The notes under the pieces: generated by a model
Databases searched by the model: none
Seen by the model: only the letters and a program-made list of their open reading frames with translations
Told to the model about the DNA's origin: nothing
Position numbers and translations under genes: made by a program
In this document: positions 31,779 through 62,044 of the stretch, piece after piece
How the letters are laid out: the number at the start of each line of letters is the position of its first letter
Numbering within the stretch: the stretch's first letter is position 1
Assembly (NCBI GenBank): GCA_009885995.1
Contig: VFJQ01000023.1
Span: 62,001-126,000, forward strand
From: Verrucomicrobiota bacterium
GTDB taxonomy: Bacteria; Verrucomicrobiota; Verrucomicrobiia; Chthoniobacterales; Chthoniobacteraceae
Length of the DNA stretch: 64,000 nt
Direction of reading: 5' to 3'

Positions 31779-34700
31779 ATGAAGCCGCTGCTTCGCTCCC
31801 TCCTCGCTCTCGCCGTGTCGTCCGCTTTCGCCGCGGACGCGAACCGCCTCACGTATCTCGACGACTCGTCGCCGTTCTGGCCCACGTCGCAGTCACCGAA
31901 ATTCACCACGCCGCAATGGGTCGGCGAACCGGGCGTCGATGCGGTCGTCGTGCTCGCGATCGACGACATGCGCGAGCCGGCGAAATACGAAGCCTTCCTC
32001 CGCCCGATCCTCGACCGGCTGAAACGAATCGAACCCGCCCATGGCGGCGATGGCCGCGCGCCGGTGAGCATCATGACGAACGTCGTGCAACCCGACGATC
32101 CGCAGCTTGCGGCGTGGCTGAAGGAAGGCCTCTCGCTCGAAGTCCACACGCTCGCGCATCCGTGCCCGTGCCTTGGCAAGATGTCGCTCGACGACGCGGC
32201 GAAGACTTACCACGGCGGCGTGGATCTGCTCGCGAGCGTGCCGGGGAACAAGCCCGTCGCCTTCCGCATGCCCTGCTGCGACTCGATGAACTCGGCGAGC
32301 CCGCGCTTCTTCTCGGAAATCTTCCCGCGGGCGAGCGAGAAGGGGAACACGCTCGCGATCGACTCGTCGGTCTTCACGCTGCCGCCGGGCGAGCGGTTCG
32401 CGAAATACTTCCCGGCCGAGCTGCGCCCGCCGATGAAGAAGACGCTCGGCGATTACGCGGGGTTCATCGACGATTACCCGTATCCCTACGTGATCGGCGG
32501 CAAGTGCTGGGAGTTCCCGTGCATCGTGCCGAGCGACTGGGAAGCGTTCAACCTGCTCGGCGCGAAGTCGGCGACGATGCTCGACGACTGGAAGGCCGCG
32601 CTGGATCGGATCGTGCAGCAGCAAGGCGTCTTCACCGCCGTCTTCCATCCGCACGGCTGGAGCGGGCCGGAGCAGTGGATCGAGTTCATCGACTACGTGG
32701 AGCAGACCTACGGCAAGCGCGTGAAGTTCCTCAACTTCCGCGAAGCGCTCGAGCGGCTGGAAAAGAACGCGCTCGCCGGTCGCACGCTCAGCACGAAACT
32801 CGGACCCGACAACGGCGTGCGCCTGCTCGACGTGAACGCGGACGGTTTCATGGACGTGGTGATCGGCGCGGCAAATCAGCCCGTGACGCGCGTGTGGAAG
32901 CCGAAAGAGCAGCGCTGGAGCGAGACGGCGACACCCGCGAACTTCGTCCGCTTCGGTGACGATGGCGGGATGCGGACGAAGGTCGCGCTCGGCATCGCGC
33001 GGAAATCCGGCGAGCCGACGCTCTTCGCGCCGGGCAAGGCGTGGACGTATCGCGACGGCGGCGCGTGGCAGTCGGACGAGGCGTTCGCTCGCAGTCTGCC
33101 TGACGCGGCGCAGATTCGCTTCCGCGATTTCGACAATGACGGCGTGTGCGAAGCGCTGACGAACGACGGCATCTTCGCATGGAGCGAGAAGGACGCGCGC
33201 TGGCAGCCTGCCGACTACGCCTTGCCGCCGGACTGCGCGCCGTTCGACACACGCGGCGGCGACAACGGCCTGCGCTTCGTCGATCTCAACGGCGATGGCT
33301 TCGACGACGTGATCCAATCGAACGACGCGGGTTACGCGGCCTATCTCTGGGCTGGCGTCGTGAAGGCGAACCTCGGCTGGAAGCACGGCTGGCCGCACCT
33401 CGTGCGCAAAGGTCCCGCCGATGCGAATGCAAAGGTCCTGCCGTTCGTGCGCGACGGGCGCAACAACGGCGCGTGGTTCCATCGCGGCTCGATCGTGTGG
33501 CAAAACGAAGCGGTCGCGACACCCGGCGCGGAGTCGGTCAGCCGCACGTTCAAGGACATCATCGCCTTCGACGTGCCGCCGGATCGGTCGCCGCAGGAGT
33601 CGCTCGCCGCGCTGCGGCCGCGACCCGGCTTCACGGTCGAACTCGTCGCCGCCGAGCCGCTCATCGAAAGCCCCGCGGCGTTCGAATGGGATGCGCAAGG
33701 CCGGCTCTGGGTCGTCGAGATGCGCGACTATCCGCTCGGCATCGATGGGAAAGGCAAAGTCGGCGGCGTGGTGAAGATCCTCACGGATACCGACGGCGAC
33801 GGCCGCTATGACAAGGCCGACACGTTCCTCGATGGCCTCGCGTATCCCACCGGCCTGCTGCCGTGGCGCAATGGCGTGCTGCTCGCCGCTTCCGCCGACA
33901 TCCTCTTCGCCGCCGACACGAACGGCGACGGTCGCGCCGACGAGAAGCGCGTGGTCTTCACCGGCTTCAAGGAAGGCAATCAGCAGCACCGGCAGAACGG
34001 CTACGAGTGGGGTCTCGATGGCTGGGTCTATGGTGCGAATGGCGACAGCGGCGGCGAGGTGAACGGCGTGAGCATCAGCAGTCGCGACTTCCGCTTCCGG
34101 CCAGACACGGGCGAGTTCGAGGCGGAGAGCGGGCAGACGCAATTCGGCCGGCGGCGCGACGACTGGGGGAACTGGTTCGGCAACAACAACTCGAAGTGGC
34201 TCTGGCACTACACGATCGACGATCGCTACCTGCGGCGGAACCCGAAGCTCGCTGTGAAGACGACGAAGCAGATGCTCGCGGAATATCCCGATTCGACGCG
34301 CGTATTTCCCGTGAGCGAGCTGCCGATCCGCTTCAATCAGCCACAGTCGCTCGGGCATCTCACCAGCGGTTGCAGCCCGGCGCTATATCGCGACGAGCTG
34401 TTCGGGCCCGCGTTCGCGACGAGCGCGTTCGTCGCCGAGCCGGTGCACAACGTGGTGCATCGCGAAGTGCTCACGCCAGACGGCGCGACCTTCACGAGCA
34501 AGCGCGCGGACGACGAGCAGGACCGCGAATTCCTCGCGAGCACCGATCCGTGGTTCCGCCCCGTGCATTTGAAAACCGGGCCCGACGGCGCGCTCTACGT
34601 CGCGGACTTCCATCGCTTCGCGCTCGAGCATCCCGAGTGGATCGCGCCCGAGACGCAGAGTCGCCTCGACCTCCGCGCCGGTGCAGACAAGGGCCGCATC

Positions 34701-35732
34701 TACCGCGTTTTCCCAAACGGCGCGAAGCTGCGCCCGGTGCCGAATCTCGCGAAGCTCGATAACGCCGCGCTTGCCGCCGCGCTCGACAGTCCGAACGGCT
34801 GGCAGCGCGACACCGCGCAGCGTGTGCTGACCGAGCGGCAGGCAAAGGACGCCGCGCCCGTGCTCCGGCAACTCGTCTCCGCTGCACGCAACGCGAAGGT
34901 CCGAGTGCAGGCGCTCGCGACGCTGGACACACTGCACGCACTCGATGCGAACACGATCCACGCCGCGCTGCGGGACAATCATCCCACCGTGCGCGTGCAG
35001 GCGCTGCGCGTGAGCACTTCGCTCGACGATGCGGTGCTCGCGAGCGCGGACGACACAGACTTCACGGTGCGCTACCAGCTCGCGCTCACGCTCGGCGCTT
35101 TCCGCGACGAACGCGCGGCCACCGCGCTCACGAAGCTCGCCGAGCGCGACGGCGACCAGCCGCAGATGCGTGTCGCGATCATGTCGTCGCTCACGCCGGA
35201 GAGCGCGCTCTTCGCGAAGCTCAACAAGGCCGCGACGTCGAGCGCAGCGCCCGCCGTCGTGCTGCCGAAGCCGAGCACGCCCGATCGCGCCCGCGTCATT
35301 GCCAGCTACGCGGGCGTGCCGAATCTCAAAGGCGTAGCCGAGCGCGGTCACGAGCTGTTCAAGCAGCAGTGCTTCATCTGCCACCGGCTGAAGGGCGAAG
35401 GCCAGGAAGTCGGCCCCGATCTCGCGATGGTCGCGGACAAGCCGGCGGACTGGCTGCTCACCGCGATCTTCGATCCGAACGCCGCGATCGAAGACCGCTT
35501 CAAGGCGCAGACGCTCAAGCTCAAGTCCGGCACCGAAATGGCCGGGCTCATCTCCGCGGAGACGGCGAACAACGTCGTGCTGCGCCTGCCCGGCGGCGTG
35601 GATTTGCCCGTGCTTCGCAGCGACCTCGCCAGCCAGCAGCCGTCCACCCGATCGCTCATGCCGGAGGGCCTCGAGACGGTGCTCAAGCCGCAGGACGTGG
35701 CGGACCTCATCGCGTGGATCCGGGCGCGGTAG
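31779..35732 (+). CDS. Multidomain secreted protein: polysaccharide-deacetylase-like N-terminus, FG-GAP-like repeats, PVC-type membrane-bound dehydrogenase propeller, HEAT-like region, C-terminal cytochrome c
   Basis: AIDD and EVHTLAH metal-site-like motifs; repeated DVNADGFMDVVIG / DFDNDGVCEALTND / DLNGDGFDDVIQSN; FEWDAQGRLWVVEMRDYP; heme motif CFICH. Confidence 0.8.
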   Translation: MKPLLRSLLALAVSSAFAADANRLTYLDDSSPFWPTSQSPKFTTPQWVGEPGVDAVVVLAIDDMREPAKYEAFLRPILDRLKRIEPAHGGDGRAPVSIMTNVVQPDDPQLAAWLKEGLSLEVHTLAHPCPCLGKMSLDDAAKTYHGGVDLLASVPGNKPVAFRMPCCDSMNSASPRFFSEIFPRASEKGNTLAIDSSVFTLPPGERFAKYFPAELRPPMKKTLGDYAGFIDDYPYPYVIGGKCWEFPCIVPSDWEAFNLLGAKSATMLDDWKAALDRIVQQQGVFTAVFHPHGWSGPEQWIEFIDYVEQTYGKRVKFLNFREALERLEKNALAGRTLSTKLGPDNGVRLLDVNADGFMDVVIGAANQPVTRVWKPKEQRWSETATPANFVRFGDDGGMRTKVALGIARKSGEPTLFAPGKAWTYRDGGAWQSDEAFARSLPDAAQIRFRDFDNDGVCEALTNDGIFAWSEKDARWQPADYALPPDCAPFDTRGGDNGLRFVDLNGDGFDDVIQSNDAGYAAYLWAGVVKANLGWKHGWPHLVRKGPADANAKVLPFVRDGRNNGAWFHRGSIVWQNEAVATPGAESVSRTFKDIIAFDVPPDRSPQESLAALRPRPGFTVELVAAEPLIESPAAFEWDAQGRLWVVEMRDYPLGIDGKGKVGGVVKILTDTDGDGRYDKADTFLDGLAYPTGLLPWRNGVLLAASADILFAADTNGDGRADEKRVVFTGFKEGNQQHRQNGYEWGLDGWVYGANGDSGGEVNGVSISSRDFRFRPDTGEFEAESGQTQFGRRRDDWGNWFGNNNSKWLWHYTIDDRYLRRNPKLAVKTTKQMLAEYPDSTRVFPVSELPIRFNQPQSLGHLTSGCSPALYRDELFGPAFATSAFVAEPVHNVVHREVLTPDGATFTSKRADDEQDREFLASTDPWFRPVHLKTGPDGALYVADFHRFALEHPEWIAPETQSRLDLRAGADKGRIYRVFPNGAKLRPVPNLAKLDNAALAAALDSPNGWQRDTAQRVLTERQAKDAAPVLRQLVSAARNAKVRVQALATLDTLHALDANTIHAALRDNHPTVRVQALRVSTSLDDAVLASADDTDFTVRYQLALTLGAFRDERAATALTKLAERDGDQPQMRVAIMSSLTPESALFAKLNKAATSSAAPAVVLPKPSTPDRARVIASYAGVPNLKGVAERGHELFKQQCFICHRLKGEGQEVGPDLAMVADKPADWLLTAIFDPNAAIEDRFKAQTLKLKSGTEMAGLISAETANNVVLRLPGGVDLPVLRSDLASQQPSTRSLMPEGLETVLKPQDVADLIAWIRAR

Positions 35733-53478: not shown

Positions 53479-56400
53479 ATGCGCCGCCTTCTGATCGCCC
53501 TCTGTCTCGCCCTGCCTGCCGTCTCCTTCGCCCAGAAGAAGAACGACCAACTCCCGGAGCGCTCGGAGGCGGACATCCTGAAGACCGTCACCCTGCCCGA
53601 AGGCTACGAGGCGACCGTCTTCGGCAAGCCGCCGCAGGGTGGCTACCCGGTGCAGGTCAGCGCGGCCATCGATGGGACGATCTTCGTCGCCATCGACGAA
53701 AACGGCTCGCTCGGGCGCGATCGGAACACGGCGGAGCAGAAGCCCGGTAAGGTCGTCCGCATGCGCGACACCGACGGCGATGGGCACGCGGATGAGTTCA
53801 TCACCTTCTGCGACGTCGAGAGCCCGCGCGGCGTGATCTGGGACGGCGTGCCAGTAGTCCAAAGTCCAAAGTCCAAGACTGCCGAAGGCAGGTCGAGGGG
53901 GAAACATGGCGACAATCCAAAGTCCTCGCAGTCGAACGCGCCCACGCAGGGGAAGACTTTGGACTTCGGACCCTTGGACCTTGGACCCTACCGCCTCCCC
54001 GGCACGCTCTACGTCATGCACCCGCCGAACCTCACCGCTTACACCGACACCGACGGCGACGGGAAATCCGACAAGCAGGAGGACATCCTCACCGGGCTCG
54101 GCTTCGGGCTCGATTTCCGCGGCGCGGATCACACCACGAATGGCTGCCGGCTCGGCATCGATGGCTTCATCTACATCGCGGTCGGCGACTACGGCTTCAC
54201 GAAAGCGGTCGCCAAGGACGGCACCACGCTCACCAACCGCGGCGGCGGCATCGTGCGCATCCGGCCCGATGGCACCGGCTTCGAGATCGTCTCGCGCGGC
54301 CAGCGCAACATCTACGACGTGGCCGTCTCGCCCACGCTCGACCTCTTCACCCGCGACAACACCAACGACGGCGGCGGCTGGAACGTGCGCCTGAGCTTCG
54401 TCCCGCCCGGCGCGCACATGGGCTACCCGTATTTGTTCAAAAACTTCCCCGAAGACCGGCTCGACGCGCTGGCCGATCTCGGCGGCGGCAGCCCGTGCGG
54501 CGCGCTCTGGCTCGATGAACCGGGGCTGCCGAAGGGGCTCTTCACCGTCGAGTGGGGCGCGGGCGGCATCTTCTACCACGACGATCTCGTGCCCGACGGC
54601 GCCGGGTGGAAGCTGGCCGGTGTAGCGTCCGCTGTCCCAGCGGACAGTGCGCTGGGACAGCGGACGCTACAGCCCGACGGCAGGAAGACCCCGACGGTGA
54701 AGCCGAACCAATGGATCAAAATGGTCCGCCCGACCGACATGGACGTGGACGCCAGCGGCCGCCTCTACATCACGAGCTGGGAAGGCGCGACGTTCAACTA
54801 CAACGGGCCCTTCGCGGGGTATGTGCTGCGGGTGGTGAAGAAGGGGGCGGGGAAGGTGGCTGTGCTGGAGATTGCGAAGGCGAAGCCGGCGGAACTTGTG
54901 CAGCTCATCAATTCGCCAAGCGGCGTCGTTCGTCAGGCGACGCAGCGAGAATTGATTCGTCGCGGTGCGAACGAAGACGTGCTGATCGGCTTGATGAAGA
55001 TCGCGCACTCGAAAGCGCCGTTGGAAATTCGCGTGGCGGCCTTGTATTCGGCGCTGCAATCGATCCCCGCATCGAACAAGCCGCTCGAAATGTTTTTTCC
55101 GCAGATGCTCGGGCCGATCTTCGACGCGGGCGACGCGCGTGAGTTCGGGCTGCGGTTGGCGGGTGACTTTCCGAAGCGCCTCGAAGGATTTGGTTTCAGC
55201 CCCGAAATTCTCGCTGACGCGAGCCCCCGCGCCCGCGCCGCCGCGATCACCGCGCTGCGCCGGCTGCACAAGACCGACGCCGCGCCTTCCATCCTCCCGC
55301 TCGTCGCCGATCCCGACCCGGTCGTCGCGCACCTTGCCGTGCGGGCGCTCAGCGAGTTGAAGGCGGTGCAGCCTTGCCTCGCTGCGCTCGATTCCACCGA
55401 CGCCAAGGTGCAGCCCGGCGCCTTGCGCGCGCTCTACGGCATCTCCGATCCCGCCGTCGTGGACGGTCTCCTTTCCCGCCTTGGCGGCGCGAAAGGCGAG
55501 CTGCGCCGCGGCATCCTCAACGCGCTCTGCCGCCTCGCCAACCAGGACGCGCCTTACACCGACCCGAGCGTGTGGTGGGGCACGCGGCCCGATACGAGCG
55601 GCCCGGTTTACCAGCCCATCGCGTGGAGCGAGACCGACAAGATCACCGCCGCGCTCAAGACCGCGCTCGAGAAGTCCGACGCCGACGATGCGAAGTGGCT
55701 CGTGCAGCGCATGTATGCCACGAAGGTGAACTTCCCCGACCTCGTGGAACTCATGCTCGCCAAGGCCGGCAGCGACACGCCCGCCAAGCTCGAAGCCATC
55801 GAGGGCATGATCCGCGCCGACAATTCGCTCCCCGCCGAGGGCGTCGCCGCGCTGCAAAGCATCGCCACCGATGACCGGCAAGCCATCGAGCTGCGCGTGC
55901 GCGCGCTGCGGGTCTTCCAGCGCTGCGCGGAGAATGGCACCGTCTTCCCCGGCGCCGTCGCCGCCTTTGCCCCGCTCGCCGGACACGACATCGGCGACGC
56001 GAAGCTCACCGCCGCGTTCGAGGACTTCACCCGCGGCGCGCATAACGGCAAATGGGTCGGCGATTACGCGAAACATCTCACCGGCAAGGACGCCGCCACG
56101 CGCCAGCTCGCCGCGACCGTGCTCGTGAATCTGTCCACCAGCCGCGTCGGCAAGGAGCAGGATCGCGACGCCGCGAAGAAGGCCGTGGAGAAAGCCTTCG
56201 CGCAGCCCGAGCCCGCCGCCGCGCTGCTCGCCGCGATCGCCCGCACCGGCGCGAAGCCTTACGCCGAGCAGGTGAAGGCGAAGCTGAACGATCCCAACAA
56301 CGCCGTGGCCGAAGCCGCTCTCTTCGCCTTCCAAAAACTCGGCGGCGGCGACAAGCCGGCGAAGATGATCGGCGAGATGAAATACGAGGAGGTCCTCGCC

Positions 56401-56829
56401 GCCGTGCAGCGCGGTGGCGACGTGAAAGCGGGCAGCGAGATGTTCCTCAAAGCCGCCTGCATCGCCTGCCACACCATCAACGCCGACGAGCCGCCGAAAG
56501 GCCCGATCCTCAGCGCCGTCGCGAAGATCTACGACCGCGCCGCGCTGACCGAGAGCATCCTCAAGCCGAGCGCGAAGATCGCGCAGGGCTTTGAGAGCAC
56601 GTGGATCAAGACGAAGAAAGGTGAGCAGGTGGAAGGCTTCGTGACGCGCGAAGGCGGCGACAGCGTGGACATCCGCAACATCGCCGGCCAGACCGTGCTC
56701 GTGGAGAAAGCCGACATCGCCGAGCGAGGCCACCGCGACATCTCGATCATGCCCGAGGGCCTGCTCAACGCCTTCACGACCGCCGACATCGCGAACCTGC
56801 TCGCGTGGATGGAGTCGCTGAAGAAGTGA
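53479..56829 (+). CDS. PVC-type CxxCH heme-binding protein (membrane-bound dehydrogenase propeller + HEAT-like + cytochrome c) with two in-frame palindromic insertions
   Basis: Signal peptide; DTDGDGHADEF, TDTDGDGKSDKQEDILTGLGFGLDF; heme motif CIACH; C-terminal MPEGLLNAFTTADIANLLAWMESLKK. Confidence 0.88.
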   Translation: MRRLLIALCLALPAVSFAQKKNDQLPERSEADILKTVTLPEGYEATVFGKPPQGGYPVQVSAAIDGTIFVAIDENGSLGRDRNTAEQKPGKVVRMRDTDGDGHADEFITFCDVESPRGVIWDGVPVVQSPKSKTAEGRSRGKHGDNPKSSQSNAPTQGKTLDFGPLDLGPYRLPGTLYVMHPPNLTAYTDTDGDGKSDKQEDILTGLGFGLDFRGADHTTNGCRLGIDGFIYIAVGDYGFTKAVAKDGTTLTNRGGGIVRIRPDGTGFEIVSRGQRNIYDVAVSPTLDLFTRDNTNDGGGWNVRLSFVPPGAHMGYPYLFKNFPEDRLDALADLGGGSPCGALWLDEPGLPKGLFTVEWGAGGIFYHDDLVPDGAGWKLAGVASAVPADSALGQRTLQPDGRKTPTVKPNQWIKMVRPTDMDVDASGRLYITSWEGATFNYNGPFAGYVLRVVKKGAGKVAVLEIAKAKPAELVQLINSPSGVVRQATQRELIRRGANEDVLIGLMKIAHSKAPLEIRVAALYSALQSIPASNKPLEMFFPQMLGPIFDAGDAREFGLRLAGDFPKRLEGFGFSPEILADASPRARAAAITALRRLHKTDAAPSILPLVADPDPVVAHLAVRALSELKAVQPCLAALDSTDAKVQPGALRALYGISDPAVVDGLLSRLGGAKGELRRGILNALCRLANQDAPYTDPSVWWGTRPDTSGPVYQPIAWSETDKITAALKTALEKSDADDAKWLVQRMYATKVNFPDLVELMLAKAGSDTPAKLEAIEGMIRADNSLPAEGVAALQSIATDDRQAIELRVRALRVFQRCAENGTVFPGAVAAFAPLAGHDIGDAKLTAAFEDFTRGAHNGKWVGDYAKHLTGKDAATRQLAATVLVNLSTSRVGKEQDRDAAKKAVEKAFAQPEPAAALLAAIARTGAKPYAEQVKAKLNDPNNAVAEAALFAFQKLGGGDKPAKMIGEMKYEEVLAAVQRGGDVKAGSEMFLKAACIACHTINADEPPKGPILSAVAKIYDRAALTESILKPSAKIAQGFESTWIKTKKGEQVEGFVTREGGDSVDIRNIAGQTVLVEKADIAERGHRDISIMPEGLLNAFTTADIANLLAWMESLKK
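53857..53986. repeat. In-frame palindrome built from 7-mers (GTCCAAA family)
   Basis: GTCCAAAGTCCAAAGTCCAAGAC ... GACTTTGGACTTCGGACCCTTGGACCTTGGAC; encodes VQSPKSKTAEG...GKTLDFGPLDLGPY. Confidence 0.88.
54621..54671. repeat. In-frame perfect palindrome of exactly 51 bp, GTAGCG/CCGCTGTCCCAGCGG family
   Basis: TGTAGCGTCCGCTGTCCCAGCG-gacagtg-CGCTGGGACAGCGGACGCTACA, 22-bp perfect arms, 7-nt loop, 17 codons. Confidence 0.96.
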
Positions 56830-61994: not shown

Positions 61995-62044
61995 TCGGCG
62001 CGCAACTCCGCGCTCCCGGCGCGGTTCCAGTCAGCACCGTTGCC

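Follow-up and report, generated by a model that had tools for sequence, protein, structure and literature searches.

Tiny repeats that sit inside heptamer arrays have been described to date mainly in cyanobacteria. The small dispersed repeats (SDR) of Nostoc, the subject of Elhai et al. 2008 (cited in PMC3116915 and PMC4390886), are said to be tiny elements that are nested and frequently lie within tandem heptamers or repeats of other kinds; an RNA intermediate has been proposed for them. SDR5 inserts in HIP1 at a fixed point (PMC4390886). Repeats of the TAACTGA heptamer occur in Beggiatoaceae, Cyanobacteria, and Bacteroidetes, and STRR in cyanobacteria, and some of these arrays are located in ORFs (PMC4679880). 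Rickettsia palindromic elements (RPE), about 150 bp long, are found in frame in unrelated protein genes (PMC10969869). In Verrucomicrobia, ORFs can contain GTAG REPs and REPINs, and a single gene may hold several (PMC3733652, PMC3116915); the largest number of intragenic GTAG REPs is that of Opitutus terrae, another member of this group (PMC3733652). REPs are the preferred target of the insertion sequences ISPpu9, ISPa11, and others (PMC1525189).

Here, we present a palindromic insert in a cytochrome gene of a Verrucomicrobiota bacterium (GenBank assembly GCA_009885995.1). The gene lies in the window, by which we mean the whole 64,000-nt stretch of contig VFJQ01000023.1 that was analyzed (contig positions 62,001 to 126,000). 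The insert is composite, with a palindrome of GTCCAAA heptamers on the outside and a 38-nt dispersed element within the left arm of the palindrome. Similarly to an RPE, the palindrome is inserted in frame in a protein gene. However, RPEs form dispersed families with a conserved peptide, whereas the GTCCAAA palindrome is built of heptamers, occupies one locus in this genome, encodes no conserved peptide, and contains a nested second element. The palindrome shares with GTAG REPs and REPINs the GTAG..CTAC ends and the inverted pair within an ORF, and the same gene contains a true GTAG REP dimer (54621–54671). It differs from them in that the arms are tandem heptamers, the copy number is not high, and no RAYT flanked by GTCCAAA arrays was found in the genome. 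The TAACTGA and STRR repeats are likewise tandem heptamers scattered over distant bacteria, some of them in ORFs, but they mostly form direct, intergenic arrays, whereas the GTCCAAA repeat uses another word and forms an inverted pair in a gene.

The 38-nt element resembles the Nostoc SDRs, by description and not by sequence, in being tiny, dispersed, and nested in heptamer arrays or other repeats. However, it occurs in another phylum, is 38 nt long instead of 21–27, exchanges 2 nt of its target, prefers REP palindromes, and displays no covariation for a hairpin. ISPpu9 and ISPa11 are full insertion sequences with a transposase, whereas the 38-nt element encodes nothing. In-frame palindromes and tiny nested elements were already known as kinds; the 38-nt family, its phylum, its preference for palindromes across unrelated sequences, and the 2-nt exchange are new. 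A second family of tiny nested repeats, outside the cyanobacteria, whose targets form a clear class, whose ends are defined, and whose 2-nt exchange can be read against many empty REPs of the same genome, provides a measurable footprint for the question of movement.

Insertion in the cytochrome gene

The host gene and its two in-frame repeats are positioned as follows.
53479..56829, plus strand: host gene, an ORF of 1116 aa encoding a PVC-type haem-binding CxxCH protein
53853..53987, no strand assigned: whole in-frame insertion, 135 nt or 45 codons, delimited by 26 homologues that lack it; the edges are inferred, and a 1-nt shift is equally possible
54621..54671, no strand assigned: GTAG-type REP dimer TGTAGCGTCCGCTGTCCCAGCGGAC.GTGCGCTGGGACAGCGGACGCTACA in the same gene and in frame, where it reads GVASAVPADSALGQRTLQP

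The host protein is composed of an N-terminal β-propeller part, HEAT repeats, and a C-terminal cytochrome c. It contains the Pfam domains DUF7133, HEAT_2, and Cytochrom_C; in NCBIfam it matches TIGR02603 above the cut-off and TIGR02604 below the cut-off. The β-propeller fold was recognized from an AlphaFold2 model built on the alignment and from Foldseek matches, which include quinoprotein glucose dehydrogenases and NHL-type designs. The overall pLDDT of the model is 68, and therefore only the general picture is safe. In the model, the 135-nt insert is predicted to form a disordered loop with a pLDDT of 35–40, located between the strands 99–104 and 156–162. Peptides predicted from the insert include HGDNPK and TLDFGPLDLGPYR. 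The REP dimer is also situated in a low-confidence loop of the model (364–386), and is most likely the palindrome that the preliminary description counted as the first one of this gene. It belongs to the family of TGTAGCGT REPs, which flank a Y1 transposase gene on contig C74.

As judged from comparison with homologous sequences, the palindrome in the cytochrome gene is a real, recent, lineage-specific, in-frame insertion. The ORF scan shows the reading frame uninterrupted across the palindrome. The insert is absent from all 26 aligned homologues from relatives, which are 47–73% identical to the host protein over the aligned part. The preliminary description had named conservation of the loop as protein elsewhere as an observation that would speak against an insertion, and this was looked for among the same 26 homologues and found in none. 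In a tblastn search of 57 related genomes, every homologue match ended at the edge of the insert (residue 173–178). The sequence from the nearest relative, Chthoniobacter flavus, reads WDG-PKGDG-PGVLYVMHPP, compared with WDG-50 aa-PGTLYVMHPP in the window. The net gain of exactly 45 codons sharpens the earlier estimate of about 45. The related protein encoded at 31779–35732 reads PTGLLPWRNGVLLAASADILFAADTNGDG without interruption at the equivalent place, as had been noted before.

Joining nucleotide 53852 to 53988 gives GGC GTG CCC TAC CGC CTC CCC GGC, translated as G-VPYRL-PG. Since the excision leaves a five-residue loop as in C. flavus, the insert probably spans 53853–53987, 135 nt. No target-site duplication was seen at the palindrome insertion. 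As in RPEs, the palindrome lies within an ORF with an intact frame and is missing from the orthologues. Copies in several unrelated genes are found for the nested 38-nt element, whereas the outer palindrome has a single locus in the genome.

Composite palindrome and the GTCCAAA repeat

From left to right, the palindrome is composed of the following parts.
53854..53857, plus strand: GTAG, the left end of the palindrome, whose last G is the first G of the array; from the sequence, the same tetranucleotide as in the REP heads of the genome
53857..53877, plus strand: first part of the left arm, GTCCAAAGTCCAAAGTCCAAG, three GTCCAAA heptamers read from the sequence
53878..53915, plus strand: nested 38-nt dispersed element ACTGCCGAAGGCAGGTCGAGGGGGAAACATGGCGACAA (also given as ACTGCCGAAGGCAGGTCGAGGnGGAAACAnGGCGACAA), found in repeat searches of the genome
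53916..53925, plus strand: second part of the left arm, TCCAAAGTCC, split from the first part by the 38-nt element and folding back on the right arm
53926..53954, no strand assigned: central loop TCGCAGTCGAACGCGCCCACGCAGGGGAA, from the sequence
53955..53986, minus strand: right arm GACTTTGGACTTCGGACCCTTGGACCTTGGAC, degenerate TTTGGAC heptamers, from the sequence
53988..53991, minus strand: CTAC, the right end of the palindrome; the minus strand reads GGTAGGGTCC, a 7-base head as in the GGTAGGG REPs of the genome

The preliminary description had placed the two arms at 53857–53877 and 53955–53986, where we also find them, and the pairing of the arms is far above chance. Without the nested element, the inverted-repeat score is 41; first-order Markov shuffling of this stretch, repeated 1000 times, gave scores of 13.6 on average and 26 at most. 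The insertion of a palindrome thus stands as described, but the account of its make-up was incomplete, because the insert consists of two elements, one within the other; the 38-nt repeat in the left arm had been missed, together with the resumption of the array as TCCAAAGTCC. The score is 29 in the presence of the nested element and rises to 41 after its excision, and therefore the 38-nt element interrupts an older palindrome. The minus strand of the insert folds strongly (z -4.1).

GTCCAAA repeats with inverted arms are present at one locus of this genome, when allowing ≤1 mismatch in 13 nt. The genome contains eight Y1_Tnp matches, and none of the eight genes is flanked by GTCCAAA arrays. 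The heptamer palindrome was therefore rejected as a RAYT-flanking repeat. For one of the eight Y1 transposase genes, on contig C74, the flanking repeats are GTAG REPs of the TGTAGCGT type that belong to the genome's own set. The outer palindrome carries GTAG (53854–53857) and CTAC (53988–53991) at its outer ends, but REPINs have many dispersed copies and the palindrome has a single locus in the genome. We call it REPIN-like in anatomy and not a member of the REPINs, because both its copy number and its RAYT neighbourhood differ from theirs. A RAYT-like Y1 transposase (L180:5608-6339, on contig C74 of genome G000), with a Pfam score just under the cut-off, contains an in-frame REP dimer of the surrounding family (ALGQRGVASAVSAEDALGQRTLQ).

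An exact 18-nt GTCCAAA array was found in 6 of the 387 Verrucomicrobiota genomes, and inverted partners are present at several loci of G214. Inverted GTCCAAA pairs also occur in five viral contigs, and the loops differ between genomes. GTAG ends were rejected as a hallmark of all GTCCAAA palindromes, since they are mostly absent from those of other Verrucomicrobiota and of phage contigs; therefore, the window copy is the one source of the link between the outer part and a RAYT. In 1.53 Mb, a quarter of the genome, there are about a dozen inverted 7/8-mer elements that use few words; the block-shuffled sequence has none. The backward control of the GTCCAAA pattern, CCTGAAACCTGAAACCTG, is abundant in some Verrucomicrobiota (67 sites in G369) as another heptamer family. 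The backward pattern CCTGAAA cannot serve as a clean control, since it forms repeats of its own in other genomes.

Two viral contigs (L181:7382-8602 and L185:7804-9012) have GTCCAAA palindromes at both edges of a 346-aa gene, about 1.15 kb apart. The gene was considered as a transposase and rejected, since it does not look like one; its product is probably a virion protein. In another Verrucomicrobium (L085, contig C27 of G148), a mixed insert of GTCCAAA and CTTCAGC heptamers is located in the frame of a putative aminoacyl-tRNA synthetase.

Nested 38-nt element

The 38-nt element is a short dispersed repeat, as are the SDRs, with 17 strong copies (E <= 3e-10, covariance model) on 15 contigs of the window's genome. 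A pattern search finds 13 copies at <=3 mismatches, and its backward control finds 0. Six variant copies are present in one relative, the soil isolate Chthoniobacter flavus Ellin428 (G017), and none in the other relatives searched. Similarly, an exact-pattern scan of a species genome collection gave matches only in C. flavus. In a sample of 387 Verrucomicrobiota genomes, the element was found in one, its own, and in none of the others at 2 mismatches. In some copies (L038, L042, L043, and C. flavus), a 24-nt hairpin module or a 12-nt tail module is present in duplicate. A structure of two short stems accounts for 96.6% of the cells in the alignment of the element, with shuffles being nearly as good, and no pair of the drawn hairpins has changed on both sides. 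The hairpins are plausible, although not proven. An Rfam search of the region gave nothing credible. No partner insertion sequence was found for the non-coding element, and a search of the 1.53 Mb for copies split around a larger insertion sequence found none.

Context inspection places about 16 of the 17 copies inside another palindromic repeat, either a REP or a heptamer array; L042 is the sole copy without a clear palindromic host. At least 12 of the 17 lie <=20 nt from a REP head. Such zones make up 0.28% of the 1.53 Mb sampled, which gives a binomial p of about 1e-27 for a sample of contigs picked partly because they carry elements. The REP-head test replaced a generic palindrome score around the nested copies, which is insensitive because a short REP hairpin no longer scores once an element has entered it. 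Two copies are embedded in heptamer arrays, the window copy (L033, GTCCAAA) and L040 (GGGAGTT), and two further copies in REPs with duplicated modules (L038, L043). The hosts comprise at least five repeats of different sequence: GGTAGGG, TGTAGCGT, GTGGCTCACGC, GTCCAAA, and GGGAGTT. Relative to the TGTAGCGT REP, the element occurs in both orientations (L032 compared with L034), and its point of insertion varies among the hosts.

The empty site can be read because the genome also has many REPs of these families that lack the element. In seven of the eight clear comparisons with empty REPs (L028-L031, L034, L035, L039), exactly 2 target nt are missing at the junction, and 3 at L027; the comparisons cover the families other than GTGGCTCACGC, whose REPs are not resolvable. 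By eye, the lost bases are mostly TG; L032, which has the opposite orientation, lost GG, and the copy in the GGGAGTT array lost AG. The entry of 38 nt and loss of 2 nt (net +36) therefore keeps the frame. By extension from the copies in REPs, the window copy in the GTCCAAA array would have lost 2 nt as well. The embedding in other repeats, including heptamer arrays, and the precise insertion point with a recoverable empty site are features in common with SDRs.

Besides the window copy, the in-frame copies of the element include L032 and L034, which share an ORF on contig C74, and L040, which lies in the gene of an AMP-binding enzyme. Across unrelated proteins, several different frames of the element are used. 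The 38-mer is free of stops in six frames, as are 27% of random genomic 38-mers, and so is the GTCCAAA tandem, as half of all heptamers are. Openness is therefore a filter for survivors and not a design. We speculate that the 38-nt element is among the smallest mobile DNAs, that it recognizes palindromes of any sequence as such (the loops of REPs, the arms of heptamer arrays), and that by swapping itself for exactly two target bases it settles in genes without a frameshift; as a whole, this reading is unlikely.

History of the insert

We think it likely that two successive insertions of non-coding repeat DNA took place in a tolerant surface loop of the cytochrome gene. A GTCCAAA palindrome with GTAG ends, about 99 nt or 33 codons long, would have entered the five-residue loop between two β-propeller strands. 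In this it may have resembled a REPIN, being a short element that forms a hairpin and is moved in trans. It would most likely have been mobilized by a RAYT-type single-strand (HUH Y1) transposase; at least one such gene, accompanied by its own REPs, is present in the genome. Later, by the order that we infer, the 38-nt element of a second, lineage-specific family would have entered the left arm, adding net 36 nt or 12 codons. The end product would be a full-length protein with a 45-residue disordered loop that presumably has no function of its own. The survival of both insertions would be explained by net lengths divisible by three and by the lack of a stop codon in all six frames of either sequence. 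The insert also illustrates how selfish repeats lengthen proteins, here by two layers in a propeller loop, each probably a multiple of three and stop-free.

Alternatively, the outer palindrome may have grown in place from a short seed by replication slippage and hairpin template switching, with the 38-nt element as the only mobile part and the heptamer word recurring because arrays of this kind arise readily and lack stops in every frame. We regard this as rather unlikely. The single GTCCAAA locus in the genome, the variable loops and ends of GTCCAAA palindromes in different genomes, the lack of a visible target-site duplication, and the ease with which heptamers (half of them) give arrays open in six frames all agree with growth in place, which would, however, need to reinvent the same inverted heptamer in distant orders and in phage contigs. 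The dozen or so inverted 7/8-mer elements of few words in a quarter of the genome, with 0 in the shuffled control, also argue against it. The same question of mobility concerns the 38-nt element, which could have originated once in a REP and been distributed as part of the composite, through recombination or copying by a RAYT. Most copies do reside in REPs of families that RAYTs are thought to move, but a single composite would keep one host sequence, whereas the copies occupy at least five host repeats, at different points and, relative to the TGTAGCGT REP, in both orientations, which makes such passive spread improbable.

A role for the insert as a functional protein loop under selection, or as an RNA hairpin in regulation, is very improbable: every homologue does without it, the loop is predicted to be disordered, and the 38-nt element occurs in unrelated proteins in several reading frames. 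The open frame would suit a functional loop and the strong minus-strand fold an RNA, but the fold is a consequence of the inverted arms. The genome is a 181-contig draft, in which an assembly artefact or a wrong gene call could mimic an insertion. This is hardly credible here, given the intact frame on both sides, the occurrence of the nested family on 15 contigs of this genome and otherwise in one relative, and a second heptamer array with the same element in frame in the AMP-binding enzyme. Two successive insertions, the outer palindrome and then the 38-nt element, remain our preferred reading.

The surroundings of the cytochrome gene are rich in similar repeats. Five inverted tandem 7/8-mer palindromes are located within 6 kb (48027-53991), compared with about eight in the other 1.5 Mb sampled; the chance of such a cluster is about 1e-6, with the window having been searched more closely than the rest.
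48027-48099: inverted 7/8-mer palindrome CACGAAGG
52018-52105: inverted 7/8-mer palindrome CGCAGAGG
52375-52480: inverted 7/8-mer palindrome TCAGTAA
52912-53040: inverted 7/8-mer palindrome GGGAGCA
53854-53991: inverted 7/8-mer palindrome GTCCAAA

The TCAGTAA and GGGAGCA palindromes are both in frame in the dihydropteroate synthase gene (52127-53170), and the family profile matches this gene in separate stretches around the two.
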